NCBI RefSeq assembly: GCF_026151205.1
Contig: NC_087082.1
Location: 20,546,494 to 20,610,493 of the forward strand
Origin: Bolinopsis microptera
Taxonomy: Eukaryota > Ctenophora > Tentaculata > Lobata > Bolinopsidae
Direction: 5' to 3'
DNA: 64,000 bases
Positions 31,643-63,229 of this stretch are shown one piece after another. The first letter of the stretch is position 1. Every line of letters begins with the position of its first letter. Made by a program: the position numbers and the translations under genes. Below the pieces are notes generated by a model. That model was not told where the DNA came from, made no database searches, and saw only the letters and a list, made by a program, of their open reading frames with translations.

Positions 31643-34600
31643 TTGCAGCAAGGTCTATCATCTTGCAGCAAGGTCTATCATCTTGCAGCAAGGTCTTATC
31701 CTTCTTGCAGCAAGGTCATATCATCATGCAGCAAGGTCTATCATCTTGCAGCAAGGTCTATCCTCTTGCAGCAAGGTCTATCATCTTGCAGCAAGGTCTA
31801 TCCTCTTGCAGCAAGGCCTATCATCTTGCAGCAAGGTCATCATCTTGCAGCAAGGTCTATCATCTTGCAGCAAGGTCTATCATCTTGCAGCAAGGTCTAT
31901 CATCTTGCAGCAAGGTCTATCATCTTGCAGCAAGGTCTATCATCTTGCAGCAAGGTCACATCTGCAGCAAGGCCATGCAGCAAGGTCTATCATCTTGCAG
32001 CAAGGTCTATCTTCTTGCAGCAAGGTCTATCACTGTGCAGCAGGTCTATCATCTTGCAGCAAGGTCTATCATCTTGCAGCAGGTCTATCCTCTTGCAGCA
32101 AGGTCTATCATCTTGCAGCAAGGTCTATCATCTTGCAGCAAGGTCTATCATCTTGCAGCAAGGTCTATCCCTCTTGCAGCAAGGTCTATCATCTTTGCAG
32201 CAAGGTCTATCATCTTGCAGCAAGGTCTATCATCTTGCAGCAAGGTCTATCATCTTGCAGCAAGGTCTATCATCTTGCAGCAAGGTCTATCATCTTGCAG
32301 CAAGGTCCTTGCAGCAGGTCTATCATCTTGCAGCAAGGTCTATCATCTTGCAGCAAGGTCTATCATCTTGCAGCAAGGTCTATCATCTTGCAGCAAGGTC
32401 TATCATCTTGCAGCAAGGTCTATCATCTTGCAGCAAGGTCTATCATCTTGCAGCAAGGTCTATCATCTTGCAGCAAGGTCTATCATCTTGCAGCAAGGTC
32501 TATCATCTTGCAGCAAGGTCTATCATCTTGCAGCAAGGTCTATCATCTTGCAGCAAGGTCTATCATCTTGCAGCAAGGTCTATCATCTTGCAGCAAGGTC
32601 TATCATCTTGCAGCAAGGTCTATCATCTTGCAGCAAGGTCTATCTTGCAGCAAGGTCTATCATCTTGCAGCAAGGTCTATCATCTTGCAGCAAGGTCTAT
32701 CATCTTGCAGCAAGGTCTATCATCTTGCAGCAAGGTCTATCATCTTGCAGCAAGGTCTATCATCTTGCAGCAAGGTCTATCATCTTGCAGCAAGGTCTAT
32801 CATCTTGCAGCAAGGTCTATCATCTTGCAGCAAGGTCTATCATCTTGCAGCAAGGTCTATCATCTTGCAGCAAGGTCTATCATCTTGCAGCAAGGTCTAT
32901 CATCTTGCAGCAAGGTCTATCATCTTGCAGCAAGGTCTATCATCTTGCAGCAAGGTCTATCATCTTGCAGCAAGGTCTATCATCTTGCAGCAAGGTCTAT
33001 CATCTTGCAGCAAGGTCTATCATCTTGCAGCAAGGTCTATCATCTTGCAGCAAGGTCTATCATCTTGCAGCAAGGTCTATCATCTTGCAGCAAGGTCTAT
33101 CATCTTGCAGCAAGGTCTATCATCTTGCAGCAAGGTCTATCATCTTGCAGCAAGGTCTATCATCTTGCAGCAAGGTCTATCATCTTGCAGCAAGGTCTAT
33201 CATCTTGCAGCAAGGTCTATCATCTTGCAGCAAGGTCTATCATCTTGCAGCAAGGTCTATCATCTTGCAGCAAGGTCTATCATCTTGCAGCAAGGTCTAT
33301 CATCTGCAGCAAGGTCTATCATCTTGCAGCAAGGTCTATCATCTTGCAGCAAGGTCTATCATCTTGCAGCAAGGTCTATCATCTTGCAGCAAGGTCTATC
33401 ATCTTGCAGCAAGGTCTATCATCTTGCAGCAAGGTCTATCATCTTGCAGCAAGGTCTATCATCTTGCAGCAAGGTCTATCATCTTGCAGCAAGGTCTATC
33501 ATCTTGCAGCAAGGTCTATCATCTTGCAGCAAGGTCTATCATCTTGCAGCAAGGTCTTGCAGCAAGGTCTATCATCTTGCAGCAAGGTCTATCATCTTGC
33601 AGCAAGGTCTATCATCTTGCAGCAAGGTCTATCATCTTGCAGCAAGGTCTATCCTCTTGCAGCAAGGTCTATCATCTTGCAGCAAGGTCTATCATCTTGC
33701 AGCAAGGTCTATCATCTTGCAGCAAGGTCTATCATCTTGCAGCAAGGTCTATCATCTTGCAGCAAGGTCTATCATCTTGCAGCAAGGTCTATCATCTTGC
33801 AGCAAGGTCTATCATCTTGCAGCAAGGTCTATCATCTTGCAGCAAGGTCTATCATCTTGCAGCAAGGTCTATCATCTTGCAGCAAGGTCTATCATCTTGC
33901 AGCAAGGTCTATCATCTTGCAGCAAGGTCTATCATCTTGCAGCAAGGCCTATCCTCTTGCAGCAAGGTCTATCATCTTGCAGCAAGGTCTATCATCTTGC
34001 AGCAAGGTCTATCATCTTGCAGCAAGGTCTATCATCTTGCAGCAAGGTCTATCATCTTGCAGCAAGGTCTATCATCTTGCAGCAAGGTCTATCATCTTGC
34101 AGCAAGGTCTATCATCTTGCAGCAAGGTCTATCATCTTGCAGCAAGGTCTATCATCTTGCAGCAAGGTCTATCATCTTGCAGCAAGGTCTATCATCTTGC
34201 AGCAAGGTCTATCATCTTGCAGCAAGGTCTATCATCTTGCAGCAAGGTCTATCATCTTGCAGCAAGGTCTATCCTCTTGCAGCAAGGTCTATCATCTTGC
34301 AGCAAGGCTCTTCATTGCAGCAAGGTCTATCATCTTGCAGCACGGCCTTGCAGCAAGGTCTATCATCTTGCAGCAAGGTCTATCATCTTGCAGCAAGGTC
34401 TATCATCTTGCAGCAAGGTCTATCATCTTGCAGCAAGGTCTTTCATCTTGCAGCAAGGCCTGGCAGCAAGGTCTATCATCTTGCAGCAAGGTCTATCATC
34501 TTGCAGCAAGGTCTTTCATCTTGCAGCAAGGTCTATCATCTTGCAGCAAGGTCTATCATCTTGCCGCACGGCCTATCCTCTTGCAGCAAGGTCTATCATC

Positions 34601-36206
34601 TTGCCAGCAAGGTCTATCTCTTGCAGCAAGGTCATCATCTTGCAGCAAGGTCTATCCTCTTGCAGCAGGTCTATCATCTTGCAGCAAGGTCTATCATCTT
34701 GCAGCAAGTCTATCATCTTGCAGCAAGGCCTTGCAGCAAGGTCTATCATCTTGCAGCAAGGTCTATCATCTTGCAGCAAGGCCTTCGCAGGCAAGGTCTA
34801 TCATCTTGCAGCAAGGGTCTATCATCTTGCAGCAAGGTCTATCATCTTGCAGCAAGGCCTTGCAGCAAGGTCTATCATCTTGCAGCAAGGTCTTGCAGCA
34901 AGGTCTATCATCTTGCACCAAGGTCTATCATCTTGCAGCAAGGTCTATCATCTTGCAGCAAGGCCTATCCTCTTGCAGCAAGGTCTATCATCTTGCAGCA
35001 AGGTCTATCATCTTGCAGCAAGGTCTATCATCTTGCAGCAAGGTCTATCATCTTGCAGCAAGGTCTATTATCTTGCAGCAAGGCCTTGCAGCAAGGTCTA
35101 TCATCTTGCAGCAAGGCCTTGCAGCAAGGTCTATCATCTTGCAGCAAGGTCTATCATCTTGCAGCAAGGTCTATCATCTTGCAGCAAGGTCTATCATCTT
35201 GCAGCAAGGTCTATCATCTTGCAGCAAGGTCTATCATCTTGCAGCAAGGTCTATCATCTTGCAGCAAGGTCTATCATCTTGCAGCAAGGTCTATCATCTT
35301 GCAGCAAGGTCTATCATCTTGCAGCAAAGTCTATCATCTTGCAGCAAGGTCTATCATCTTGCAGCAAGGTCTATCATCTTGCAGCAAGGTCTATCATCTT
35401 GCAGCAAGGCCTTGCAGCAAGGTCTATCATCTTGCAGCAAGGCCTTGCAGCAAGGTCTATCATCTTGCAGCAAGGTCTATCATCTTGCAGCAAGGTCTAT
35501 CATCTTGCAGCAAGGTCTATCATCTTGCAGCAAGGTCTATCATCTTGCAGCAAGGTCTATCATCTTGCAGCAAGGTCTATCATCTTGCAGCAAGGTCTAT
35601 CATCTTGCAGCAAGGCCTTGCAGCAAGGTCTATCATCTTGCAGCAAGGTATATCATCTTGCAGCAAGGTCTATCATCTTGCAGCAAGCTCTATCATCTTG
35701 CAGCAAGGTCTATCATCTTGCAGCAAGGTCTATCATCTTGCAGCAAGGCCTTGCAGCAAGGTCTATCATCTTGCAGCAAGGTCTATCATCTTGCAGCAAG
35801 GTCTATCATCTTGCAGCAAGGTCTATCATCTTGCAGCAAGGTCTATCATCTTGCAGCAAGGTCTATCATCTTGCAGCAAGGTCTATCATCTTGCAGCAAG
35901 GTCTATCATCTTGCAGCAAGGTCTATCATCTTGCAGCAAGGCCTTGCAGCAAGGTCTATCATCTTGCAGCAAGGTCTATCATCTTGCAGCAAGGTCTATC
36001 ATCTTGCAGCAAGGTCTATCATCTTGCAGCAAGGTCTATCATCTTGCAGCAAGGTCTATCATCTTGCAGCAAGGTCTATCATCTTGCAGCAAGGTCTATC
36101 ATCTTGCAGCAAGGTCTATCATCTTGCAGCAAGGCCTTGCAGCAAGGTCTATCATCTTGCAGCAAGGTCTATCATCTTGCAGCAAGGTCTATCATCTTGC
36201 AGCAAC
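31643..36206 (+). repeat. 20-bp satellite, about 225-230 units
   Basis: Unit TATCATCTTGCAGCAAGGTC. Each unit contains the perfect short palindrome CTTGCAGCAAG. Most units are identical. Irregular units cluster at the left edge (31,643-32,330) and near 34,290-34,920. A 13-bp short form (TTGCAGCAAGGCC, lacking 7 bp) recurs at least ten times, almost only right of 34,340. Because 20 is not a multiple of 3 and the unit contains no stop in any forward frame, three frames stay open for about 1,520-1,580 codons each; these are not proteins. The array lies 38 bp downstream (in gene sense) of hexosaminidase exon 10, so it is probably intronic. Confidence 0.95.
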
Positions 36207-36243: not shown

Positions 36244-36374
36244 CTGTTGTCATACGACTTGACCAGAGGATAGCTTTAGGTTTGTCTTCGGATGTCACCT
36301 CTTTTAGCTGCTGGTACGCTCTCTGTTGGTAGTAATCCCACAGCTTCATAAAACCTCCTACATCACTACTCCAC
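36244..36374 (-). CDS. Hexosaminidase exon 10
   Basis: Acceptor ACAACAG|GTGGAG, chosen because it alone restores the phase 2 frame left by exon 9. Encodes WSSDVGGFMKLWDYYQQRA and AILWSSRMTT, the conserved segment after the catalytic strand. Donor probably ACAACAG|GTTGGC. It lies more than 6.5 kb from exon 9 because of the nested insertion. Confidence 0.85.
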
Positions 36375-39300
36375 CTGTTGTTGTATTGCTGGCCAAATAG
36401 CTTTACAAATAGTCGTTAACGTTCATTTTAGACAGTAATTGTCCATTGTTACTGTTAGTAGGACTAACCCGGGCCCCCCCAGCGTGCGCTACTTCGTAGC
36501 ACTTGCCACGGGCTAATATTTCGAAAAGAAAGCGGCGCGCGCTACTTCGAATAAATTTAGACGAGTAACATCCGTCAACCCAAATACCACGTTTATTTTT
36601 AGCGACGTTTGACCTAATATAGGTTATGTTGACTTCTGTTTAAGGGGAGATACACCAAAACCGTTTTTGCTCCGAACATCGATTTTATTTTATATTATTT
36701 TTAAATAGACAAAAAGAATAAGATTGTACACCTTCAAAAATTTTTAAAAATATTCCCTCATCGAGAAAAAAAATATTTTTCTTTTTCGAAAATTTTTAAA
36801 ATTTGGAGAAGTCTGTCACTGTAATACCGATAGTTCGGCCATTTAAAAAGTTTTTTGGCTGATTTTTTTACTGAACATTACTTACACTCCGTACTAGAAG
36901 CCATTGAAAGGATTATATAATTGAACAATAAATGACCAAGTTACAGACCGAACAAGGTGAAAAAAGAAAAATTGGGATTTTTGCCTACCACCAAAGTTGT
37001 ACATTTCACCAACCGCCCAGGTCATCAGATATCGCTTCAAAAATTCTTGTGAGTGTAGTTGATGATCATGGCAAGCTTTTTGGAACCGGATTTCCCTCAA
37101 TTTTGAGTTTTAAGCTATGCAATGTGGCCTCAAACGACTTAGTAAAATTCATCGTAAAAAAGGGCAAAAAAGGCAGATTTAAGGCTTAAAATGCCTATAA
37201 CTCAAAAAGTATCAGTTTTTTTGAAATAATTTTTACAGGATCGTAATCAGCTTGGTAAGACGAATCTTTTAGTACCAAATAGGTGCTTTTAGAAGACAAA
37301 TTGTCTTAAATAGTTTTCTAGCTCGAACACAAGGGTCCCCCCTTGTATAAATTTTGTACAAATTGTACACATTTTTTTACAAATTTTGTGGCTTTGAATA
37401 TTATAAATGTCGTACTAAAAGATTCGTCTTACCAAGCTGATTACGATCCTGTAAAAATTATTTCAAAAAAACTGATACTTTTTGAGTTATAGGCATTTTA
37501 AGCCTTAAATCTGCCTTTTTTGCCCTTTTTTACGATGAATTTTACTAAGTCGTTTGAGGCCACATTGCATAGCTTAAAACTCAAAATTGAGGGAAATCCG
37601 GTTCCAAAAAGCTTGCCATGATCATCAACTACACTCACAAGAATTTTTGAAGCGATATCTGATGACCTGGGCGGGTGGTGAAATGTACAACTTTGGTGGT
37701 AGGCAAAAATCCCAATTTTTCTTTTTTCACCTTGTTCGGTCTGTAACTTGGTCATTTATTGTTCAATTATATAATCCTTTCAATGGCTTCTAGTACGGAG
37801 TGTAAGTAATGTTCAGTAAAAAAATCAGCCAAAAAACTTTTTAAATGGCCGAACTATCGGTATTACAGTGACAGACTTCTCCAAATTTTAAAAATTTTCG
37901 AAAAAGAAAAATATTTTTTTTCTCGATGAGGGAATATTTTTAAAAATTTTTGAAGGTGTACAATCTTATTCTTTTTGTCTATTGAAATGAAATGAAATGA
38001 AATGAGGTATTTATATCCCGCTCATATGATTAACCAACAACACAAGGAAGAGGTTAACCATGTCAGAGCGGCTGACTGTGAGTAATGTGAGCAAATGTGT
38101 AAAATGAACAAAAGTATAACTCAAAAAGGCTTAAGACAAAATTAAAACATCTTTTATTGTAAACACCGCACTAAACTAAAAAGAAGCAGAAACCATACAA
38201 TACGTGTAGGTATTATAAATGATAATACAGTGACATGATCAACAAAAAAGAGAGACAGATCCTAGAAAGGTAGAGATCAAGACATAAAATGGAGTGCAGT
38301 AAAAAATAAAAGCCAATGTGTCTTGCAAAGTGAAGACAAATGGGAAGAAAAAACATCAAAACTGATTATATAAATGGTTCTTTAACATTCGCTTGAAGCA
38401 GTTGGTATCAGTAATACATCTCAACATCATTGGAAGAGAGTTCCATGCAATCGGTGCATGGCTTGAGAAACGTCTGTCATCAACTTTTGACCTTTTATTC
38501 TTTGGTACCTTTAACATGAGATGGTCAACAGATCTTTTCGACCTGGTCATGGTGTTTGAAAGTTCTGTATCCACTACAGCCACATCTAGTAATGCTTTTA
38601 GGTAATCAGGTGCAGTACCGTGAACTGATTTGTGGGTTAAAAGACAAACCTTAAAGAAGATTCGTTGGTCTATAGGGAGTATGTGGGCCTTCTTATAGAA
38701 GGGAACCAAGTCCGTGGTTCTGTCTTCTATGTTATAGATGAAACGAACTGCCCCATTAAGGGTGGATCTAAGTTTGTTTAATCTGGTCTTGGGTAGATTC
38801 ATGTACAGAGAATTACAGTAATCTAATTTAGATATAACCAGTTGTTTCACCAACATCAATTTAATGCCTTCATCCAGGTAACGACCAATAGTTCTTAAGT
38901 TCATCATTGTCCAGCTACATTTCCTTTTCACATTATTTATTTGTCTTTCCATGTTTAAAGTTTCATCAAATTTGACACCTAGACTCTTCCAGCTGTCTCC
39001 TTTGCACTCCGTAGGTAGAATTTCAGTGCTTCCGAATTGTAGTCTGACACTGAGTTCACACTTTTTTAGAACATGGCTCTTTCCTAACACCAGTAGTTCT
39101 GTCTTTGTTTCATTCAGTTTCATGTAATTGTTCACCATCCATGTTTTGATCTCTGCAAGACATTTGTTTGTCCTGTCTTGGACATCAGTGAACTGTACCA
39201 CACGGTTTGGTTGAAACGAGATGTACAGTTGGGAATCATCTGCATATAGCTGTATATCAAGACCATATTTGGCAGCAATTTTTTGGAGAGCTTTGATATA

Positions 39301-42300
39301 GAGGATGAAAAGAATAGGCCCCAAGAGTGATCCCTGGGGAACTCCAAACAAAAGCTCCAAGAAAGTAGAAAGATTATCGTCAATCTTCACACAGAAGTGT
39401 CTCTTCTCAAGGTAGGACTTTATCCATTGCAGTGCACTTCCAGTAATTCCATAGTCTTTCATAAGCTTTTCCAATAAGACTGTGTGGTCAATGGTATCAA
39501 ACGCTGCACTTAAGTCGAGAAGTACAACAATAACAACATTCCCAGCTTCAATTTCTTTGTTAAGATCATCACACATTCTTACAAGTAATGTTTCACAGCT
39601 GTGGTTAGGGCGGTATCCAGATTGGACGTCCGAGTAGAGGCTATGTGTCGTGAGATGGACGTTGAGCTGGTTAAGTACAGTTCTCTCTAGGATCTTGGAG
39701 AACGCAGAGAGGTTAGAGACTGGTCGATAGTTACTGAGAATATCAACATCAGCATTTTCCTTCTTCAAAGTCGGCTTGATGACTGCTTTCTTCATATCTG
39801 AGGGAAAGATTCCAGTCTTTAAGGATGAGTTCAAGACGTGGAGTAAAATAGGTGTCAGTTCAGCGACACAGTTTTTTAAGAGAAATGCTGGGATCGGATC
39901 CAAGCAGCAGAACTTGTTAGACATCTTCGATACCAGGTCTTTGAGTTCATCAGCTGTTATCTCAGAGAAATTATCAAAGATGAAGTCTTTATCAAGAACA
40001 GGATCTTTGTCTTTGTCTTTGTCTTTGTCTTTGTCTTTGTCTTTGTCTTTGTCTTTGTCTTTGTCTTTGTCTTTGTCTTTGTCTTTGTTTATATCTTTGT
40101 CTTTGTCTTTGTCTTTGTTTATATCTTTGTCTTTGTCTTTGTCTTTTTCTTTGTCTTTGTCTTTGTCTTTGTCTTTGTCTTTGTCTTTGTCTTTGTCTTT
40201 AACAGAATCTTTTCCTTCCTTCTCAATGGCTCGTCTGATGGTAGCAACCTTTTCAGCGAAAAAATCTTTAAAATCTTCTGATAGTTTAACAGGATCCTTG
40301 TAGTTTGGAAGGTTTTGGGTGTCATTTCCTAAAAGTCTGTTGACTTTTTTGTACAATGCTTTAGTATCCCCTGAAGAGGACCTAAGAGAGGTTTTGTGGT
40401 GAGCACATCTTTTAACAAACTCTACTCGGGAAAACTCATCTCTTAGCTTAACATAATCAGATCTCAAGTACTCAGATCTTTCACTGTCTATATAATCTAC
40501 TTTATCTTTTCTCCAGGCACGTTCCGCAGTTCTTCTTTTTCGCCTGAGAATACGAAGTTCTAGATCTAACCAGGGCATTGGCTTCTTGGTAATCTTCTTT
40601 TTTATGTAGGGACAATGTTTATCCATTAACTGAGTGAGTACGGTGTTGTAAAGGACGACAGCATCATTCGGAGACATATCTTTGGGGAAGTTTGTCAGTT
40701 TTGAAATTACAATATCTTCTTTAAACTGTTCTGTATCAATTAAATTAAAGTTTCTGTAGTTCATAAATTTAACGTCTTCTTTGGTCTTTGTCTTGATGTC
40801 TGCATCGAAGAGGACAAGGAAATGGTCAGATTTGGTTCTTGAGGGACGGATTTCAAATGAAGTCAGTTTTTCCTTGAAGGATCTATTAGTAACTACAAGA
40901 TCTAGGGTTCCACCTTGGTCATGGGTTGGCTCAAGAGGAACATGTTGATAAAGGTCATACTCCTCCAGGAGTTGGTAGAGCTTCTTTGGGTAGTGTTCTT
41001 CAGTCTTTTCCATGTGAAAGTTGAAATCTCCAGCGATAATAGGAAAACCAGGTTTGACTGTGAGGTCTTTAAGGTAGTCTTCAAATTCTTCTAGAAAGGC
41101 ACACTCCGTGTACCGAGCCTTCTTGGTATAAGGAGGCCGATACAAGTTCACAAGTCTCACAATATCTTGTTGAGATTGTAGCAGTGATTCCATCACTTGG
41201 AAGGATTTGTACTTCGTGACCTTACTATTACATTTTAACTGGAGGACATCACGAAATAGCATAGCTATACCTCCTCCTCCTCTATGTTTTCGTGGGTCCG
41301 AGAGTATATTCCAACCAAGGTCTTTGATCTCCATTATCTTAGCTGTGTTTCCATCACGAAAGAAAGTTTCTTGTACAAAACAGATGTCACAGTCAACTTC
41401 TTGAAGATGCTCTAAGACTCCGACTGTTTTGTTCACTAGGGATCTTACATTGAACGTTCCAATCCTTAAACTCTTCCTAGGCGTAGTTTGGTCTCCTTTG
41501 TCTTCTGTACGTACCAGTTTTTTGAACTCTCACATCCTGCTGTCCTATTCATGATTCCAATCCGTTCTCTTACATACGAGGGACATAGGTTGTCAGAGGC
41601 TTTATGGGTCTTTGCTGAGTTCTTCTCCGAGTGTTTACTACTTTTGGCGCAGTTAGAGCACTTTATCTTTGTGACAATATTTTCACTCTTGCTTCTACAG
41701 TCTTTTGACTTGTGGTTTCCTGCACAGAAGAAACATGTTGGGTCTTTATCTTTGGCTTTACAGTACAGGGAGTTAGCCATGTGACCAAATTCCTGGCAAT
41801 GATAACATTGGATGACATGAATTCGGTCTGTGACATGGTGTTCCCTAAGGTCAATGTGTACATAGTCTCTGTTTTGTCTGATTGACTGACGTACTGCTGC
41901 AGTGACACGGATGACAGCCGTTTTCTCTTTATCATCGAAGAAAACCACTTTAACCGCATCGTCTTTTTCAGAAGAGGACTTCAGTACTTCATTCTTTTCC
42001 AACAGTTTCTCTAGCAATGTATCCTTGTTTGTGATGTCAGAGGGAATATTTCGAATAGACAGTTTGGGGTCCAATTTCTTCCCTGGTTCGGACTTTGTCG
42101 ATACCTTGTATTTATCTTGACTTTTAAATACCGTCTCAGCTTTGTTAAGTTGATCCTTGGTACTGAACTTGAAAGTCGCAGTATTTCCGGACACTCTAAA
42201 ATTCTTCACTGGGTTTATTTTAAGGGAACCTTTCATTTCCTTTTCATCATCAATTGTGATAGGTTCTGCGTCTTCAGAGTCTGTGGTCTTTTTCTCAACT

Positions 42301-45300
42301 GTGAGTGTGTGTTTTTCTGCAAGCATAGTTTCTTCTTTTGCTTTCTTTTCTTTGGGTAGTGTTGCTACCACTGTATTCAATAAATCTGGTAGTATTGTGG
42401 GCAGTACTTCTGCTAGTACCTCTTTGAGCTGTGTCTTTATAATTTCCTTGAAATCTGGTGATTCCTGTTTAATAGGAGTTGTGGCTTGTTTTGTTCCTAA
42501 AACTTGTTGTGTTAGTTGGAGAGCATTTTTGGAGAAAGTGTACAAATCCTGGATAACAACAAACATCTCCATTTTTTTATTTGCAGACGTAAGTTCATCA
42601 AATATCGCTGATTGAATAGTTACCTTAATCTTATTGTCATTATCATCTTTCTTACCTTTAAACAAAAGTGTATTGCGGTTTATCTTTTCCAATTGTTCCT
42701 CCATCTTTTTCATGTCCAACTTCATCTTTTCCATGTCAAAAACCCTGCTAGAAAGATCAAGGACCGAAGGGACAAGTGACAAATTGTCAGTTCTTAAAAA
42801 AACTAAACAACTGTTTTGTAATAATTCGATACCTCAAATTATTTGTTATATAGTAGTGTTGAAAGTATTTAAAAATAATATAAAATAAAATCGATGTTCG
42901 GAGCAAAAACGGTTTTGGTGTATCTCCCCTTAATCTCGCTCATTTAGCTTACCCTTTGGACTCCATAAAGTCAATGATAGATGTCTCAGATTTCCAGCAA
43001 TCAAAATTAACTTCGTCTCCTCCCATGTGCAACCATTGGCTTGGGAACGAGTCTTTAAGGTCTTGGTATATATCCTGGAATGATGGTTGGAGGTAAAGAA
43101 CTGCTTTCTTTAATGAGGAAGAAATCTGCGAGTGTGATAAGCACCCTTAAACTCTTAAACAGTTTCCAAAATCTCAGTCCCCTCAGACTCAGAGTTTCGT
43201 GTAAAAATGCTGAATTCAAATTCTAACGAAATATTTATTCTAACGAAAACGACCTTTAAAACAGGGTACAGCTCCTCGTTAACTACATTCATCTGCCCAC
43301 AGGGCGGTTCCAAACAATAGTCAGTCCACGGTTCTTTACCAACACACACGACTAGATCACCTGGATATTGAGATTGGAAACTAGTTTATTTATTTAATTT
43401 CAACACTCCATAAAATATCTTATTTTTTATAACAAAATAACTTTAGTCCCTGGGATATTCCTACATTTTCCCTCACGGTATCCTCAACCTACCTTTCCCA
43501 GCAGCCTTGCCCCACTGCCATCCATATCCAGCATGTGCTGGGGCGTCTAGCTCCGGAACTATCCTAATACCCCGCTTCTGAAAACAGTACGTAAAAAACA
43601 TGTATCTCTCCTCACTGTGATTTGGTCAAATCGTGTTATAGATTAATTGTTACCCAAGGTTTACCACTTAAAGTTAACGAGTATGTTAAAATAACAGATC
43701 AAAGGAAACACCTCAGACATTAACCTTAGCATTGTTTATAACCTACCATGATAGTACCAAGACGCGCGCAGAGTTGGACTCGTTGCAAATTGACGGTCTA
43801 TTTGGAATATTTGGAACAAATATTTTACGAGTAACACCCGTAATTAACCTTAGCATAGGTGACGATATCCTTCACAGTTTCAGGAGTGTAAGTTTTATCA
43901 GGAAGATACGCCCCGTACTCTGACATCTTAGGGACTGTCTTACTGACAAAGGGGAAGCTGTGGCTGTCGGAGAGGTGCCAGTGCAGAGTGTTCATCTTAG
44001 CTGCTGCTAGACCGTCTAGAATCTTCCTGAACACATTGCAATTAGACCATCTAGTATCTTCCTGAACACATTGCAATCTTAGCTGCTGCTAGACTGTCTA
44101 GTATCTTCCTGAACACATTGCAATTAGACCATCTAGTATCTTCCTGAACACATTGCAATCTTAGCTGCTGCTAGACTGTCTAGTATCTTCCTGAACACAT
44201 TGCAATTAGACCATCTAGTATCTTCCTGAACACATTGCAATCTTAGCTGCTGCTAGACCATTAATGAACTTATTACTGTAGCTGCTGCTAGACCGTCTAG
44301 AATCTTCCTGAACACATTGCAATTAGACCATCTAGTATCTTCCTGAACACATTGCAATCTTAGCTGCTGCTAGACTGTCTAGTATCTTCCTGAACACATT
44401 GCAATTAGACCATCTAGTATCTTCCTGAACACATTGCAATCTTAGCTGCTGCTAGACTGTCTAGTATCTTCCTGAACACATTGCAATTAGACCATCTAGT
44501 ATCTTCCTGTATCTTCCTGAACGCATTGCAATCTTAGCTGCTGCTAGACCATTAATGAACTTATTACTGTAGCTGCTGCTAGACCATCTACAATCTTCCT
44601 GAACACATTGCAATTATCATCTTAGCTGCTGCTAGACCGTCTACAATCTTCCTGAACACATTGCAATCTTAGCTGCTGCTAGACCATCTAGAATCTTCCT
44701 GAACACATTGCAATGAAAAACTTATTACTGTGCTATACTGATACTTAATGAAATAGTCATGTAAATTGTTTATAGAATAGCTTTAGAGCTATCCCAATAA
44801 CCTGAACCATACAGCTGATAGACATAATTCTCACATTAACTAGGTAGAGTAGACTCTCAGTATATAGTATTAGTATATGTATAGTAAAGATGGAACCATG
44901 ATTGATAACCTACTTGATAACAGGAGTTGAAATGTAGTTCCTGCTGGTATCAAGTGACAGTCCTCGCCAGGGATAATAAGGACTGTCCACTATCTTTATA
45001 CTGTTAACTATGTAGGTCCTGTTGTCCACTGTGTCGGATAGAGCCAGCTGGGACAGTGTTTCAACTCCATGACGCGCTCCCTGGTGGAAATATGATTGGG
45101 AATCTCACCAGATCAACAAACAAGATCAATTCTATTTCTAAATGAAAATTTCATTTAATTTGTTGCACTGTTTTATACGTTTACTATTTTTACTAATAGT
45201 ACTAGTAGTATCAACAGCTCTTACAAAGTAAGAGGCAGCTTTGACTTTGGCGTCAACATTTCCTTGCTCGTCAGTAGAGACAGTAAGTTCGTAGCTCTCA

Positions 45301-46980
45301 TCCGCTGTATCCGTGAAGTCAGTCAAAGTACCGTTCTCAACATCGAACGAGAAGTTTAGCTGTGAATATATTTATAACATTATGATTAATTAGGGTTTGC
45401 TCAAATATTCTAGTGGTATTTTTTGGGATTTGCGAAATTAAAAACGCTCTCATGTGGCCGTGTTAATCGATAATTTGTTGCCAATATTGAAATAAATAAT
45501 ATAAGGTAGTTTAAATTTATTTTTGTCAAACTTTAAATGTTAAAAGAGAGGACACTATTTTGTAACGTTTACCTCAACATCTGCATCAGAGTGGGTGTAT
45601 TTTAATTTCAAATCTTCGACTAAATCGTCCAATTCTGATGCACCAACATTGTTTTGTGTATTCCCATTATATCTTGAGAATATATGGGTATTGAAACTGG
45701 AAGTTGATCACAAATTGGATATCGTTATGAAATTGAGAATTGTTCAGCTTCGTAATGACTACATAGCTAAATCACTCTACACTCGAACTTCAAGATCTTT
45801 CTGAAAGCCCCCCCCCCCCCACGGGTAAAACCCACCTGAATCATGACTCGATGCACTTTAATTCTACCCTGATTCGGGATTTTAAATCAGTATCACCCCC
45901 CGATCACTCGCTTCATTCATAAATTACTGATCAATCAGACAGGTAAGATTATACCGTTACTTATATAGTTATTGCAGGCCTCTCATATAACATTTTATTA
46001 TCAATACTAGTTGCACCCAAGTGTGACCCAACTGGCAAAGTTGCCTAAACAAATCCAGAAGCTCCTGTGTTACTGTTACTCACGAGAGATCCCTCATATT
46101 AACAGCTGAAGCTTGTCCGGAGTTCCCGGACACCTCTTTAGGACGCGGCCACAACACCCGGGTAGAGGGAGCACCTTTGTCTTCTTTGGCTGTTGAGACA
46201 CATTCCAACTTACACTTGGACGGGGGCGTGAAACTCTCGTCATCAACTGCGGATTAAATATTCTCATTACATTTCTCGTATAACTATATGTTCGTCCGGC
46301 CGGCGGCCAATACCATGCAGGTAATCTTCGTTTTATCAGTAGTTTTGTGTGCGCGTTGAATTATCTCTCTCTGGCTTTGTAGATTTTAATACATTGTTTG
46401 TACATTTTCTGTACACCGTGTACGAATACGATGCCTTTTCAGCTAGAGTGTAGAGAATGAACACTTAGATATGGTAGATGATGCAGCATTGCACTACTGG
46501 CACTGCTATTATTACTATTAGTATCATTAGTATTGGTAATGTAGTATTGCTAAAGTAGAAGTTCGATGCCATGAATTTCAATATGAATATCTTGAGGGTC
46601 ATGAATTGGAGGACTTCGCCGCTTCGACGCGCCGCGCAAACTATATAAACTTTAGCAGAGCAACGATCTGGAAGGGTTGACGTTGTCAATCAAGTCATGA
46701 AGTCAGAAGTCATCAGAAAGATACGATACTGAAAATCAAATGTACATTGTACAACTACAAACTGAAACACACTAGGTTTTAACTACCCTTACATTGATAT
46801 TGTAAAACATATGTACAAACATATTTAATAATGTATAATGTAGTACGTTACTATCCCGTTGCACTGACCTTTCAGTTGCCGAGTGCAAGCAGATGAGGTG
46901 GTGTTACATCTCCAAGTATAAGGAAAGTCCCCGCTAACAGAGGAGTGGAGGGTAAACAAAGAGAGGAGGATGGTTATCAT
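36244..46980 (-). CDS. Beta-N-acetylhexosaminidase, GH20, invertebrate type (10 exons seen, 3' end missing)
   Basis: The enzyme should remove terminal N-acetylhexosamine from chitin oligomers or glycans in a secreted or lysosomal setting. Ten exons read on the minus strand with GT..AG borders and matching phases: 46869-46980, 46084-46246, 45573-45672, 45225-45359, 44914-45080, 43849-44026, 43493-43577, 43254-43360, 42953-43107, 36244-36374. They total 1,333 nt (about 444 codons) against roughly 600 for the family, so the C-terminal part is missing. Seen motifs: signal peptide; W.C.....C.R typical of insect-type enzymes; LWPRP; PWRGL.LDTSR; HWHLSDSHSFP; ELDAPAHAG; and HMGGDEV with the catalytic Asp-Glu. 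The start ATG is preceded in frame by TGA (20 bases upstream). Frames are intact, unlike everything left of 31.6 kb. Intron 9 holds a 6.3-kb nested insertion; intron 5 an amplified splice acceptor; the next intron begins in the 20-bp satellite. Confidence 0.93.
37984..38004 (-). repeat. 3' tail of short repeats of the retrotransposon
   Basis: Four copies of TTTCA at the element's 3' end, seen on the plus strand as GAAAT repeats. The same tail closes the copy at 6,195-7,812. Simple-repeat tails instead of poly-A are typical of L2/CR1-like elements. Confidence 0.85.
38356..41469 (-). CDS. Retrotransposon ORF2: AP-type endonuclease and reverse transcriptase
   Basis: About 1,037 codons. Numbering from the GTG at 41,436: endonuclease residues about 1-225, with QETF (near 22), GDFNFH (near 138) and SDHFLV (near 206); a linker with a Lys-Asp run (412-478); RT about 500-760, with LLDLSAAFDTIDH (near 645), GVPQGSLLGP (near 690) and QLYADDSQLY (near 730); then a C-terminal region with no RNase H. 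The endonuclease normally begins with a RIGTFNVRSL-like strand, and this is present in frame just upstream of the GTG, overlapping the ORF1 stop. There is no ATG there, so translation probably uses reinitiation or frameshifting from ORF1. It nicks the target and primes cDNA synthesis. Confidence 0.93.
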   Translation of the reverse strand, partial: LRIGTFNVRSLVNKTVGVLEHLQEVDCDICFVQETFFRDGNTAKIMEIKDLGWNILSDPRKHRGGGGIAMLFRDVLQLKCNSKVTKYKSFQVMESLLQSQQDIVRLVNLYRPPYTKKARYTECAFLEEFEDYLKDLTVKPGFPIIAGDFNFHMEKTEEHYPKKLYQLLEEYDLYQHVPLEPTHDQGGTLDLVVTNRSFKEKLTSFEIRPSRTKSDHFLVLFDADIKTKTKEDVKFMNYRNFNLIDTEQFKEDIVISKLTNFPKDMSPNDAVVLYNTVLTQLMDKHCPYIKKKITKKPMPWLDLELRILRRKRRTAERAWRKDKVDYIDSERSEYLRSDYVKLRDEFSRVEFVKRCAHHKTSLRSSSGDTKALYKKVNRLLGNDTQNLPNYKDPVKLSEDFKDFFAEKVATIRRAIEKEGKDSVKDKDKDKDKDKDKDKDKEKDKDKDKDINKDKDKDKDINKDKDKDKDKDKDKDKDKDKDKDKDKDKDPVLDKDFIFDNFSEITADELKDLVSKMSNKFCCLDPIPAFLLKNCVAELTPILLHVLNSSLKTGIFPSDMKKAVIKPTLKKENADVDILSNYRPVSNLSAFSKILERTVLNQLNVHLTTHSLYSDVQSGYRPNHSCETLLVRMCDDLNKEIEAGNVVIVVLLDLSAAFDTIDHTVLLEKLMKDYGITGSALQWIKSYLEKRHFCVKIDDNLSTFLELLFGVPQGSLLGPILFILYIKALQKIAAKYGLDIQLYADDSQLYISFQPNRVVQFTDVQDRTNKCLAEIKTWMVNNYMKLNETKTELLVLGKSHVLKKCELSVRLQFGSTEILPTECKGDSWKSLGVKFDETLNMERQINNVKRKCSWTMMNLRTIGRYLDEGIKLMLVKQLVISKLDYCNSLYMNLPKTRLNKLRSTLNGAVRFIYNIEDRTTDLVPFYKKAHILPIDQRIFFKVCLLTHKSVHGTAPDYLKALLDVAVVDTELSNTMTRSKRSVDHLMLKVPKNKRSKVDDRRFSSHAPIAWNSLPMMLRCITDTNCFKRMLKNHLYNQF
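40003..40200 (-). repeat. In-frame (GACAAA)n hexamer repeat inside ORF2
   Basis: About 33 hexamers reading Lys-Asp on the minus strand, with two ATAAAC interruptions (Ile-Asn) and one Lys-Glu. It falls in the linker between endonuclease and RT and keeps frame. On the plus strand it creates a Ser-Leu frame (39,776-40,303) that is a shadow. Confidence 0.92.
41466..42782 (-). CDS. Retrotransposon ORF1: RNA-binding protein with zinc knuckles
   Basis: 438 codons. The N-terminus has a coiled-coil-like Met/Lys/Glu-rich segment (residues about 15-40, with MEKMKLDMKKMEEQLEKI). The middle is charged and low complexity around residues 165-190. The C-terminal third has CCHC-type knuckles: CYHCQEFGHMANSLYC, then CFFCAGNHKSKDC, and a third C..C..H-like group (CSNCAKSSKHSEK). 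ORF1 proteins of this kind coat the element RNA and act as chaperones. The start is the first ATG after the 5' leader. The frame ends 30 bp upstream of the first GTG of ORF2 and overlaps the beginning of the ORF2 endonuclease frame. Confidence 0.9.
   Translation of the reverse strand: MSLVPSVLDLSSRVFDMEKMKLDMKKMEEQLEKINRNTLLFKGKKDDNDNKIKVTIQSAIFDELTSANKKMEMFVVIQDLYTFSKNALQLTQQVLGTKQATTPIKQESPDFKEIIKTQLKEVLAEVLPTILPDLLNTVVATLPKEKKAKEETMLAEKHTLTVEKKTTDSEDAEPITIDDEKEMKGSLKINPVKNFRVSGNTATFKFSTKDQLNKAETVFKSQDKYKVSTKSEPGKKLDPKLSIRNIPSDITNKDTLLEKLLEKNEVLKSSSEKDDAVKVVFFDDKEKTAVIRVTAAVRQSIRQNRDYVHIDLREHHVTDRIHVIQCYHCQEFGHMANSLYCKAKDKDPTCFFCAGNHKSKDCRSKSENIVTKIKCSNCAKSSKHSEKNSAKTHKASDNLCPSYVRERIGIMNRTAGCESSKNWYVQKTKETKLRLGRV
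42953..43107 (-). CDS. Hexosaminidase exon 9 (catalytic HMGGDEV)
   Basis: Donor AAAGG|GTAAGC; acceptor most likely CATTAAAG|AAAGCA, although an alternative AG lies 4 bases on. Encodes WLHMGGDEVNFDCWKS with the catalytic Asp-Glu pair. The TTAA-flanked element begins only about 20 bp beyond the donor. Confidence 0.93.
43254..43360 (-). CDS. Hexosaminidase exon 8
   Basis: Acceptor ATATCCAG|GTGATC, donor TTAAAG|GTCGTT. Two cysteines (YCLEPPCGQMN) fit the disulfide loop before the catalytic strand in invertebrate GH20 enzymes. Ends in phase 0. Confidence 0.88.
43493..43577 (-). CDS. Hexosaminidase exon 7
   Basis: Acceptor GTTTTCAG|AAGCGG, donor GGGAAAG|GTAGGT. Encodes KRGIRIVPELDAPAHAGYGW, containing the conserved E.D.P.H block of the active site. 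Ends in phase 1. Confidence 0.93.
43849..44026 (-). CDS. Hexosaminidase exon 6
   Basis: Acceptor GTGTTCAG|GAAGATT, donor GCTAAG|GTTAAT. Encodes KILDGLAAAKMNTLHWHLSD and SHSFPF, a core barrel strand of GH20. The acceptor and the first ~30 bases are tandemly repeated upstream in intron 5 (44,027-44,715), so the exact 5' edge rests on phase and protein similarity. This copy is the only one that opens into the full exon. Confidence 0.9.
44001..44715 (-). repeat. Minisatellite made of the exon 6 splice acceptor (about 15 copies)
   Basis: On the minus strand two unit types alternate: a 47-bp unit with the acceptor TGTGTTCAG|GAAGAT plus exon 6 codons to GCAGCAGCTAAG, and a 35-bp unit that stops after GGTCTA. 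Together they make an 82-bp dimer. A larger block of about 280 bp ending in TAATGGTCTAGCAGC-like sequence is itself duplicated (44,001-44,280 and 44,281-44,570). The copy nearest exon 6 (44,001-44,046) is the functional border. The rest fills about 0.7 kb of intron 5. Confidence 0.93.
44914..45080 (-). CDS. Hexosaminidase exon 5
   Basis: Acceptor TTCCACCAG|GGAGCG, donor ATCAA|GTAGGT. Encodes GARHGVETLSQL, DSPYYPWRGLSLDTSRNYI: entry to the catalytic barrel. The Arg of PWRG is a conserved substrate-binding residue in GH20. Ends in phase 2. Confidence 0.92.
45225..45359 (-). CDS. Hexosaminidase exon 4
   Basis: Acceptor TTCACAG|CTAAAC, donor TACTTT|GTAAGA, 45 codons. Includes DESYELTV, matching the conserved DESYxL strand before the catalytic barrel. 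Confidence 0.9.
45573..45672 (-). CDS. Hexosaminidase exon 3
   Basis: Acceptor TCTCAAG|A, donor GTTGAG|GTAAAC. Codes for the polar stretch NNVGASELDDLVEDLKLKY in the N-terminal alpha/beta domain. Phase 2 in, phase 0 out. Confidence 0.85.
46084..46246 (-). CDS. Hexosaminidase exon 2
   Basis: Acceptor CCGCAG|TTGATG, donor CTCTC|GTGAGT. Encodes a CKLEC cysteine pair and VLWPRPKEVSG, the beginning of the conserved N-terminal domain of GH20. It ends in phase 2. Confidence 0.9.
46869..46980 (-). CDS. Hexosaminidase exon 1 (signal peptide, start codon)
   Basis: 37 codons plus one base, with donor AAAG|GTCAGT. A hydrophobic leader (MITILLSLFTLHSSVSG) is followed by the W-R-C ... C-T-R cysteine pair seen in invertebrate GH20 enzymes. 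It ends in phase 1, matching exon 2. Confidence 0.85.
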
Positions 46981-48680: not shown

Positions 48681-49163
48681 TCATGTGTATTTACTGGCAT
48701 TGTTATTAATTTATTCCAGAGGCGTTCCATGAGGTGATTATAACAATATCGGGGGGGGGGGGGGGGGGACACCACCTCTCAGTTTATTATCGTTACTATT
48801 ATTAACTCATAATATTAATATTTAAGTTATACTCCTCTGCATTATTTCGTTATTTGTATGATTGTATGTTATACAATCATGTACTTCGATAGTACCTCAC
48901 ATGAATTTATCGACAGTTAACTCTCTTAACTCTCTTTCACTACGGCATTCTTAACTTTGTCACGCAGTAGTATCACATTTTCATTAGACACCTACATTTT
49001 GAGAATCATTTAATTTTCGAATGGAATTTTACCGAATTAAAACCTAGTGTGTGTGTTCCTGTTCGTTTTGTATGATTGTTATACAATCATGTTTTAAAAA
49101 AAGAAGAATTGAGTGCTTTAGATGCATCTAAGTACAGTATGACGCTATAATTGTAGTTGGCAC
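48681..49163. other. Non-coding; two matching short palindromes
   Basis: Contains an 18-G run (48,751-48,768) and two similar palindromes: GTATGATTGTATGTTATACAATCATG near 48,855 (given here only as halves TGATTGTA/TACAATCA) and a shorter one near 49,070. No gene is supported before the satellite starts. Confidence 0.5.
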
Positions 49164-52100
49164 TATTATTTCTAATCATCTATTATTTCTAATCATCTAT
49201 TGTTTCTAATCATCTATTGTTTCTAATCATCTATTGTTTCTAATCATCTATTATTTCTAATCATCTATTATTTCTAATCATCTATTATTTCTAATCATCT
49301 ATTATTTCTAATCATCTATTATTTCTAATCATCTATTATTTCTAATCATCTATTATTTCTAATCATCTATTGTTTCTAATCATCTATTATTTCTAATCAT
49401 CTATTATTTCTAATCATCTATTGTTTCTAATCATCTATTATTTCTAATCATCTATTATTTCTAATCATCTATTATTTCTAATCATCTATTGTTTCTAATC
49501 ATCTATTGTTTCTAATCATCTATTGTTTCTAATCATCTATTGTTTCTAATCATCTATTATTTCTAATCATCTATTATTTCTAATCATCTATTATTTCTAA
49601 TCATCTATTATTTCTAATCATCTATTATTTCTAATCATCTATTATTTCTAATCATCTATTATTTCTAATCATCTATTGTTTCTAATCATCTATTGTTTCT
49701 AATCATCTATTGTTTCTAATCATCTATTATTTCTAATCATCTATTGTTTCTAATCATCTATTGTTTCTAATCATCTATTATTTCTAATCATCTATTATTT
49801 CTAATCATCTATTATTTCTAATCATCTATTATTTCTAATCATCTATTATTTCTAATCATCTATTGTTTCTAATCATCTATTGTTTCTAATCATCTATTGT
49901 TTCTAATCATCTATTGTTTCTAATCATCTATTATTTCTAATCATCTATTGTTTCTAATCATCTATTATTTCTAATCATCTATTATTTCTAATCATCTATT
50001 ATTTCTAATCATCTATTATTTCTAATCATCTATTATTTCTAATCATCTATTGTTTCTAATCATCTATTGTTTCTAATCATCTATTGTTTCTAATCATCTA
50101 TTATTTCTAATCATCTATTATTTCTAATCATCTATTATTTCTAATCATCTATTATTTCTAATCATCTATTATTTCTAATCATCTATTATTTCTAATCATC
50201 TATTGTTTCTAATCATCTATTATTTCTAATCATCTATTATTTCTAATCATCTATTGTTTCTAATCATCTATTATTTCTAATCATCTATTATTTCTAATCA
50301 TCTATTGTTTCTAATCATCTATTGTTTCTAATCATCTATTATTTCTAATCATCTATTGTTTCTAATCATCTATTATTTCTAATCATCTATTATTTCTAAT
50401 CATCTATTATTTCTAATCATCTATTATTTCTAATCATCTATTGTTTCTAATCATCTATTATTTCTAATCATCTATTATTTCTAATCATCTATTGTTTCTA
50501 ATCATCTATTATTTCTAATCATCTATTGTTTCTAATCATCTATTGTTTCTAATCATCTATTATTTCTAATCATCTATTATTTCTAATCATCTATTGTTTC
50601 TAATCATCTATTATTTCTAATCATCTATTATTTCTAATCATCTATTATTTCTAATCATCTATTATTTCTAATCATCTATTGTTTCTAATCATCTATTGTT
50701 TCTAATCATCTATTGTTTCTAATCATCTATTATTTCTAATCATCTATTATTTCTAATCATCTATTATTTCTAATCATCTATTATTTCTAATCATCTATTA
50801 TTTCTAATCATCTATTGTTTCTAATCATCTATTATTTCTAATCATCTATTGTTTCTAATCATCTATTATTTCTAATCATCTATTATTTCTAATCATCTAT
50901 TATTTCTAATCATCTATTGTTTCTAATCATCTATTATTTCTAATCATCTATTATTTCTAATCATCTATTATTTCTAATCATCTATTATTTCTAATCATCT
51001 ATTATTTCTAATCATCTATTATTTCTAATCATCTATTATTTCTAATCATCTATTATTTCTAATCATCTATTATTTCTAATCATCTATTATTTCTAATCAT
51101 CTATTATTTCTAATCATCTATTATTTCTAATCATCTATTGTTTCTAATCATCTATTATTTCTAATCATCTATTATTTCTAATCATCTATTATTTCTAATC
51201 ATCTATTATTTCTAATCATCTATTATTTCTAATCATCTATTATTTCTAATCATCTATTGTTTCTAATCATCTATTATTTCTAATCATCTATTATTTCTAA
51301 TCATCTATTATTTCTAATCATCTATTATTTCTAATCATCTATTATTTCTAATCATCTATTATTTCTAATCATCTATTATTTCTAATCATCTATTATTTCT
51401 AATCATCTATTGTTTCTAATCATCTATTATTTCTAATCATCTATTATTTCTAATCATCTATTGTTTCTAATCATCTATTATTTCTAATCATCTATTGTTT
51501 CTAATCATCTATTGTTTCTAATCATCTATTATTTCTAATCATCTATTATTTCTAATCATCTATTGTTTCTAATCATCTATTATTTCTAATCATCTATTAT
51601 TTCTAATCATCTATTATTTCTAATCATCTATTGTTTCTAATCATCTATTATTTCTAATCATCTATTATTTCTAATCATCTATTGTTTCTAATCATCTATT
51701 ATTTCTAATCATCTATTATTTCTAATCATCTATTGTTTCTAATCATCTATTATTTCTAATCATCTATTGTTTCTAATCATCTATTATTTCTAATCATCTA
51801 TTATTTCTAATCATCTATTATTTCTAATCATCTATTGTTTCTAATCATCTATTATTTCTAATCATCTATTGTTTCTAATCATCTATTGTTTCTAATCATC
51901 TATTATTTCTAATCATCTATTGTTTCTAATCATCTATTGTTTCTAATCATCTATTATTTCTAATCATCTATTATTTCTAATCATCTATTGTTTCTAATCA
52001 TCTATTATTTCTAATCATCTATTATTTCTAATCATCTATTATTTCTAATCATCTATTATTTCTAATCATCTATTATTTCTAATCATCTATTGTTTCTAAT

Positions 52101-55100
52101 CATCTATTGTTTCTAATCATCTATTATTTCTAATCATCTATTGTTTCTAATCATCTATTATTTCTAATCATCTATTATTTCTAATCATCTATTATTTCTA
52201 ATCATCTATTATTTCTAATCATCTATTATTTCTAATCATCTATTATTTCTAATCATCTATTGTTTCTAATCATCTATTATTTCTAATCATCTATTGTTTC
52301 TAATCATCTATTATTTCTAATCATCTATTATTTCTAATCATCTATTGTTTCTAATCATCTATTATTTCTAATCATCTATTATTTCTAATCATCTATTGTT
52401 TCTAATCATCTATTATTTCTAATCATCTATTATTTCTAATCATCTATTATTTCTAATCATCTATTATTTCTAATCATCTATTATTTCTAATCATCTATTA
52501 TTTCTAATCATCTATTATTTCTAATCATCTATTATTTCTAATCATCTATTATTTCTAATCATCTATTGTTTCTAATCATCTATTATTTCTAATCATCTAT
52601 TATTTCTAATCATCTATTATTTCTAATCATCTATTATTTCTAATCATCTATTATTTCTAATCATCTATTGTTTCTAATCATCTATTATTTCTAATCATCT
52701 ATTATTTCTAATCATCTATTATTTCTAATCATCTATTATTTCTAATCATCTATTATTTCTAATCATCTATTATTTCTAATCATCTATTATTTCTAATCAT
52801 CTATTATTTCTAATCATCTATTATTTCTAATCATCTATTATTTCTAATCATCTATTATTTCTAATCATCTATTGTTTCTAATCATCTATTATTTCTAATC
52901 ATCTATTATTTCTAATCATCTATTGTTTCTAATCATCTATTATTTCTAATCATCTATTATTTCTAATCATCTATTATTTCTAATCATCTATTATTTCTAA
53001 TCATCTATTATTTCTAATCATCTATTGTTTCTAATCATCTATTATTTCTAATCATCTATTATTTCTAATCATCTATTATTTCTAATCATCTATTGTTTCT
53101 AATCATCTATTATTTCTAATCATCTATTATTTCTAATCATCTATTATTTCTAATCATCTATTGTTTCTAATCATCTATTATTTCTAATCATCTATTATTT
53201 CTAATCATCTATTATTTCTAATCATCTATTGTTTCTAATCATCTATTATTTCTAATCATCTATTGTTTCTAATCATCTATTGTTTCTAATCATCTATTAT
53301 TTCTAATCATCTATTATTTCTAATCATCTATTGTTTCTAATCATCTATTGTTTCTAATCATCTATTATTTCTAATCATCTATTATTTCTAATCATCTATT
53401 ATTTCTAATCATCTATTATTTCTAATCATCTATTATTTCTAATCATCTATTGTTTCTAATCATCTATTATTTCTAATCATCTATTATTTCTAATCATCTA
53501 TTATTTCTAATCATCTATTATTTCTAATCATCTATTGTTTCTAATCATCTATTATTTCTAATCATCTATTATTTCTAATCATCTATTATTTCTAATCATC
53601 TATTATTTCTAATCATCTATTATTTCTAATCATCTATTGTTTCTAATCATCTATTATTTCTAATCATCTATTATTTCTAATCATCTATTATTTCTAATCA
53701 TCTATTATTTCTAATCATCTATTATTTCTAATCATCTATTGTTTCTAATCATCTATTATTTCTAATCATCTATTATTTCTAATCATCTATTATTTCTAAT
53801 CATCTATTGTTTCTAATCATCTATTATTTCTAATCATCTATTATTTCTAATCATCTATTATTTCTAATCATCTATTATTTCTAATCATCTATTATTTCTA
53901 ATCATCTATTGTTTCTAATCATCTATTATTTCTAATCATCTATTATTTCTAATCATCTATTATTTCTAATCATCTATTATTTCTAATCATCTATTATTTC
54001 TAATCATCTATTATTTCTAATCATCTATTATTTCTAATCATCTATTATTTCTAATCATCTATTATTTCTAATCATCTATTATTTCTAATCATCTATTATT
54101 TCTAATCATCTATTATTTCTAATCATCTATTATTTCTAATCATCTATTATTTCTAATCATCTATTATTTCTAATCATCTATTGTTTCTAATCATCTATTA
54201 TTTCTAATCATCTATTATTTCTAATCATCTATTATTTCTAATCATCTATTATTTCTAATCATCTATTATTTCTAATCATCTATTATTTCTAATCATCTAT
54301 TATTTCTAATCATCTATTATTTCTAATCATCTATTATTTCTAATCATCTATTATTTCTAATCATCTATTATTTCTAATCATCTATTATTTCTAATCATCT
54401 ATTGTTTCTAATCATCTATTATTTCTAATCATCTATTATTTCTAATCATCTATTATTTCTAATCATCTATTATTTCTAATCATCTATTGTTTCTAATCAT
54501 CTATTATTTCTAATCATCTATTATTTCTAATCATCTATTATTTCTAATCATCTATTATTTCTAATCATCTATTATTTCTAATCATCTATTATTTCTAATC
54601 ATCTATTATTTCTAATCATCTATTATTTCTAATCATCTATTATTTCTAATCATCTATTATTTCTAATCATCTATTATTTCTAATCATCTATTATTTCTAA
54701 TCATCTATTATTTCTAATCATCTATTATTTCTAATCATCTATTGTTTCTAATCATCTATTATTTCTAATCATCTATTATTTCTAATCATCTATTATTTCT
54801 AATCATCTATTATTTCTAATCATCTATTATTTCTAATCATCTATTATTTCTAATCATCTATTATTTCTAATCATCTATTATTTCTAATCATCTATTGTTT
54901 CTAATCATCTATTATTTCTAATCATCTATTATTTCTAATCATCTATTATTTCTAATCATCTATTGTTTCTAATCATCTATTATTTCTAATCATCTATTAT
55001 TTCTAATCATCTATTATTTCTAATCATCTATTATTTCTAATCATCTATTGTTTCTAATCATCTATTATTTCTAATCATCTATTATTTCTAATCATCTATT

Positions 55101-62761: not shown

Positions 62762-63229
62762 GATTAGTTGTTTAAGATAATAATATCTGATATCAGAATT
62801 TATGAATTAAAATTAAGATGTCTTTGGAATTAAGGGCCCATACGCTAAATCTGTCCAGCCTAAATGACTTCACAGGAAGTTTGAGAACACTAATATCTGT
62901 AATCGAGCATTTCTTGATTTAAAATCATCTTTCGGAAAAGAAATTTATTTGATTGAGTTATAGCCTCTCCAAATATTTTGTTCCGAAAAATAATTTCAAA
63001 TCAGGATGCTCGATTACAGAAATTTATACAAAAATATTATTGATTGTTATGTTCCTGAAAATTTCCTGAAAATTTTCATATTCTAGAAATACAGCCTATT
63101 TGCCTCGGAATGATTTTATCCAACAGATGGCTGAAAAGTAAGGTTGTATAGATCTTGCTAGTATTTGCACGTAATATGTGAACGACCCCTTACATAATAT
63201 GAGAGTGTAACTACTGATTAAATACCAAC
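62762..63229. other. No recognisable gene
   Basis: AT-rich flank of the satellite, probably intron of the gene that owns the exon at 63,230-63,314. No motif seen. Confidence 0.5.

Follow-up and report, generated by a model that had tools for sequence, protein, structure and literature searches.

Multiplied copies of an exon's own splice acceptor in a hexosaminidase-like gene of the ctenophore Bolinopsis microptera resemble the mirage minisatellites of amphioxus

Minisatellites that duplicate an intron-exon boundary, known as mirages, have been described in the amphioxus Adh, globin, TnC, and PGBD5 genes (PMC3087553, PMC3902484), and in the papers found they figure as possibly peculiar to cephalochordates and as starting points for new introns. 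In the globin gene BflGb6, the repeated sequence comprises the 3' end of an intron and the 5' part of the exon that follows, and RT-PCR suggested that the gene is regularly spliced (PMC3087553); the length of the array varies, with 6 versus 3 units between haplotypes (PMC3087553, PMC3902484). The Adh, TnC, and PGBD5 mirages were described likewise, with regular splicing reported (PMC3902484). According to the account of Turri 1995 given in PMC4526556, the human gene IFI6 (6-16/G1P3) carries a splice-donor minisatellite, copies of which are used as donors. Our literature searches for VNTRs at splice acceptors and for examples in ctenophores found no direct precedent. Here, we describe an array of the mirage type in a 64,000-nucleotide stretch of ctenophore DNA (the window) and compare it with other arrays found by searching the assembly (264.65 Mb, with large contigs up to C13). 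The phenomenon is thus already named, and the array is one of several in this genome, apparently placing mirages in a new phylum.

The gene concerned, hexA, is a beta-hexosaminidase-like member of GH20 on the reverse strand of the window. Exons 1 to 4 (45225-46980) lie at approximately 46867-46980, 46083-46244, 45558-45695, and 45225-45359, the first two being assigned by reading only. Exon 5 (44914-45080, from sequence and homology, with an approximate 5' end) ends in phase 2 at 44914 (..ATC AA^GTAGGT, the caret marking the boundary), as the sequence-only reading had proposed. It is followed by the 887-bp intron 5 (44027-44913) and by exon 6 (KILDGLAAAKMNTLHWHLSDSHSFPF.., 43849-44026, from homology), which begins at the real acceptor (..TGTGTTCAG^G AAG ATT CTA). 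Exons 7 to 9 (42957-43580; approximately 43491-43577, 43254-43370, and 42957-43083) contain the motif HMGGDE, and exon 10 (GFMKLWDYYQQRAYQQLKEV..) lies at 36245-36355. Since exons 5 and 6, joined at the last acceptor, align gap-free with solved insect hexosaminidases, the exon-proximal copy was taken as the functional acceptor, and both this assignment and the gene model appear well supported. Domain profiles detected the GH20 catalytic domain (PF00728, E=1e-56, positions 1-190 of 348), and the nearest solved structures are insect-type hexosaminidases; the name "hexosaminidase gene" applies to the family and does not denote a proven function. Intron 9 contains a LINE insertion (38356-42833), which on reading is a reverse-strand non-LTR retrotransposon with a CCHC ORF1 and an endonuclease/reverse transcriptase ORF2; the latter includes an in-frame 6-bp repeat (40004-40200) coding a Lys-Asp run.

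Intron 5 terminates in 15 copies of the acceptor TTGCAATGTGTTCAG^G, the functional one at 44026 and 14 upstream, confirming the sequence-only claim that an acceptor and exon start had been amplified within an intron of the same gene. A search with the motif TTGCAATG(T/C)GTTCAG^G returned 15 reverse-strand occurrences between 44026 and 44714, with first exon-side bases at 44026 (real), 44061, 44108, 44143, 44190, 44225, 44307, 44342, 44389, 44424, 44471, 44516, 44598, 44651, and 44698. The minisatellite itself (44027-44714, reverse strand), which makes up most of the 3' part of the intron, therefore comprises the 14 decoy acceptors and the intronic part of the real one; it adjoins the authentic boundary, its last unit joining real exon 6, and it is detected by TRF with a high score. 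From 5' to 3', the units measure 47, 53, 82, 45, 47, 35, 47, 35, 82, 35, 47, 35, 47, and 35 bp, so that the earlier description of 47- and 35-bp units was nearly right and omitted single units of 45 and 53 bp and two of 82 bp. Each unit spans the exon-intron boundary, with approximately 14 to 16 intron nucleotides and 19 to 33 exon nucleotides: the 35-bp units consist of about 16 intron and 19 exon bases, the 47-bp units hold about 33 exon bases, and the 82-bp units additionally include a segment similar to original intron sequence (CAGTAATAAGTTCATTAA). A longer stretch of exon (..CTAGCAGCAGCTA.., approximately 9 to 11 codons) is present in 8 of the 14 units, in agreement with the claim that about half of the copies carry the first ten codons. 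On the 5' side of the array, beyond its most distal copy, the native intron has the sequence CAGTAATAAGTTTTTCATTG. Fifteen near-identical units of 35 to 47 bp are not a chance arrangement.

In its anatomy, the hexA array is a mirage. Like those of amphioxus (Adh3, the globins BflGb6 and BflGb9, troponin C, and PGBD5), it is a minisatellite-like tandem duplication of a boundary within the same gene; such arrays are of acceptor or donor type, and many of their copies keep AG or GT. BflGb6 resembles hexA in that the 3' end of an intron and the start of the next exon are duplicated. The units differ, being mainly 35 and 47 bp in hexA versus 150 to 160 bp in BflGb6 and 10 to 72 bp in Adh3, and copy number reaches 77 in a paralogue described below. 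Moreover, regular splicing is reported from amphioxus, whereas for hexA it is presumed, the coding constraint described below being an indirect indication. As far as IFI6 is portrayed in PMC4526556, it has in common with hexA a tandem repeat offering several splice sites at a single end of an exon; however, its repeat is a donor repeat whose downstream units are used to give protein isoforms, whereas in hexA splicing to an upstream acceptor would run into stops. Tandem duplication that leads to intron gain (e.g., PMC4974935, PMC2891723) likewise creates extra splice signals within a gene, although in hexA an existing intron grows and no new intron is seen.

The reading frames behind the decoys were determined by translating from each of them in the frame of exon 5. 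All 14 hexA decoys reach a stop after 15 to 34 codons, in line with the expectation of stops downstream of every upstream acceptor, and this includes the three whose distance from the real site is divisible by three; only the last acceptor opens into exon 6. With a stop no more than 34 codons behind each decoy, the array is not expected to yield ordinary protein isoforms. The intron-side cues, in turn, do not single out the site taken as real. Five decoys match the real acceptor in the branch-like motif CTAAT at -19 and in nearly all of the 40 bases before the site. The highest pyrimidine content of all belongs to the most distal copy (intron context AGTAATAAGTTTTTCATTGCAATGTGTTCAG, 44699-44738, reverse strand). 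Judged by these cues, the distal copy is no worse an acceptor than the last one, so that a proximal choice is not predictable from sequence, a point against the reading preferred below. The real acceptor thus seems to lack a simple distinguishing sequence cue, and since local sequence does not mark it, its position beside the full exon would have to.

A genome search revealed a second gene copy, hexB, at C11:19668767-19672059 on the same contig, 0.92 Mb from hexA, in which the same intron holds 77 acceptor copies versus the 15 of hexA; of its decoys, all 76 reach a stop after 15 to 21 codons. The three most distal units (47, 53, and 82 bp) are identical and in the same order in the two arrays, which beyond these units diverge in unit order and number, the hexB array also containing higher-order blocks. 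Because the first three units are common and the rest differs, the array appears to be older than the split of the two genes, with independent turnover thereafter. The sequence-only statement that all copies keep AG^G held for 92 of 92 copies across both genes, although the search motif itself demands AG^G; no merged unit suggests a lost AG. Such retention says little about selection, since few substitutions occur anywhere in the homogenized units, and AG conservation was accordingly rejected as a sign of selection. Outside the arrays, the hexB flanks are 92 to 94% identical to hexA. Over the 356 codons shared in exons 3 to 10, which contain no stop or frameshift, 31 nucleotide differences were counted, of which 15 are synonymous, giving a dN of ∼0.02, a dS of ∼0.06, and a dN/dS of ∼0.3, all from small numbers. 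Small as these numbers are, they suggest that coding constraint persisted in at least one of the two lineages despite the arrays. In addition, glutamine-synthetase-like matches beside hexA and hexB are duplicated too (97.7% over 1.3 kb), which points to segmental duplication, a retained haplotype being the less likely alternative.

Taken as a whole, the hexA array is probably a mirage minisatellite, that is, a tandem duplication tolerated as intron with the protein left unchanged through use of the proximal acceptor. It would have begun with a short tandem duplication, probably at 1 to 2 bp of microhomology, in which exon 6 material (..CTAAGAT or ..GGTCTA) became linked to the intron sequence ATTGCAATGTGTTCAG immediately preceding the exon. 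Unequal exchange or slippage would then have multiplied the units. None of the extra copies lies beyond the exon-proximal acceptor on its exon side, so that the array could be tolerated as intron, with spliced mRNA and protein unchanged whenever that acceptor is used. Splicing to an upstream copy would lead into the in-frame stops noted above, and the resulting transcripts would be noncoding and probably degraded by nonsense-mediated decay, so that selection would act only via the mis-spliced fraction. We infer that the hexA mirage is most likely tolerated and near-neutral. The same stops could be read as a function, the upstream acceptors capturing splicing as a decoy or poison array whose copy number sets expression through nonsense-mediated decay. 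The complete run of stops (14 of 14 decoys in hexA, 76 of 76 in hexB, and 15 of 15 in an AMP-binding gene described below) and the five hexA decoys with intron context near-identical to that of the real site would suit such a role; however, stops are expected anyway, as read-through in changing frames crosses the branch-like CTAA and further sequence rich in stops, the paralogues differ five-fold in copy number without sign of constraint, and the mirages of amphioxus reportedly leave splicing undisturbed (PMC3087553, PMC3902484). We therefore consider a regulatory decoy array improbable, and the sequence-only suggestion that the extra copies lower or tune expression finds no support in these data.

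Somewhat less improbable, though still unlikely, is that hexA is a truncated or pseudogenized GH20 copy in which the array grew since splicing there was no longer selected. Such a history would not contradict the mirage label, but the question of how an acceptor is chosen in hexA would then fall away. Searches of the window, of the hexB region, and of the genome found no C-terminal GH20 exon for hexA or hexB, and together with the LINE in intron 9 this suggests that hexA may be truncated and that the catalytic activity of its predicted product is doubtful. Short divergent exons can, however, escape such searches; moreover, the 356 codons free of stops and frameshifts between the paralogues, the 15 synonymous changes among 31 with their low dN/dS, and the presence of similar arrays in other genes all speak against loss of selection. 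An origin of the copies in assembly was also weighed. Consensus assemblies can give wrong array lengths, and the joint duplication of hexB and the adjacent glutamine-synthetase-like matches is what a misplaced haplotype might produce. Yet an isolated expansion is unlikely, given that the array of the paralogue is longer and has diverged and that similar arrays occur in three unrelated genes. A repeat or second gene copy (retained haplotig) made in assembly is highly improbable, as the hexA and hexB arrays are unlike in substitutions and in the order of their units, the genes show a coding dS of ∼0.06 and a flank identity of 92 to 94%, and other contigs carry similarly built arrays of unrelated sequence; should the two genes be alleles, the array would still be real. 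Assembly alone was therefore rejected as the main account, and a tolerated mirage remains the reading that we prefer.

The three further genes carry independent, sequence-unrelated boundary arrays, two at acceptors (26 and 16 copies) and one at a donor (24 copies). A third GH20 gene, on C2 (C2:940137 onwards), which has C-terminal exons (KGWQKIYH.., IVGGETALWTEQ..), bears an acceptor mirage ahead of exon 12 at C2:945600-948440 (L022 8600-9901 plus L023 1-1540), with 26 copies of GCTAACATAG^TCGGTGGAGAAACAGCTC in composite units of 90, 112, and 134 bp that include a local GTTACTAG repeat. Its intron 5, homologous to the array-bearing intron of hexA, consists mostly of a 25-bp repeat starting right at the donor (L068 5922-6500 plus L022 1-3015). 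Two AMP-binding genes provide the other cases. The acceptor mirage L061 (C7:14162877-14163014 and downstream) holds 16 copies of CTAACTGTCAG^G(T/A)GGTATAATGATAGC, mostly 69 bp apart, and 15 of its 15 decoys reach a stop. In the acyl-CoA ligase-like gene L059 (C9:14209419-14209541, reverse strand), the exon end ..LGDTVPG with its GGTTAGT donor is repeated in 24 copies of 59-bp units, and a stop follows directly after the exon. A mechanical boundary-array test on 93 exon matches flagged hexA/hexB, the C2 gene, and L059 as true arrays; L059 and L061 emerged from 17 AMP-binding exon matches, the L061 array being spotted by eye, as its exon is not itself among the matches. No exon-copy arrays were found in myosin genes among 42 exon matches in five genes. 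An 8-bp array beside one myosin exon (L065) was flagged, but it looks like an HMM overrun into a repeat and not a mirage.

Boundary arrays are thus a recurrent class in this genome, as seen in a sample that was not random, and at least four independent mirages in a ctenophore genome would mean that the process is wider than cephalochordates. It is conceivable, though rather doubtful, that exon-boundary minisatellites form a common genome-wide class of introns in the ctenophore lineage, each such intron containing tens of near-identical splice sites, so that the splicing machinery would have to recognize the exon-proximal one reliably from its position or through exon definition and not from splice-site sequence. 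Near-identical acceptor or donor arrays are natural experiments on how the spliceosome chooses between equal sites, which are otherwise hard to set up, and this genome offers both acceptor and donor cases, with 15 to 77 copies, for studying splice-site choice.

Repeats of other kinds were also observed. Downstream of hexA exon 10, an array of 20-bp TTGCAGCAAGGTCTATCATC-type units (31643-36205) was considered as a donor mirage and rejected, since it does not match the exon 10 boundary; its hexB version (L024 3585-9868) is longer and more complex. A 17-bp satellite (CTATTATTTCTAATCAT) occupies 13.6 kb of the window (49163-62766) with ∼800 copies at 97% match. Alongside the intron-rich GH20 genes, the assembly contains single-exon GH20 genes with 408-aa open frames, clustered at C2:21804799-21899653 and C11:7432764, and many intronless genes.
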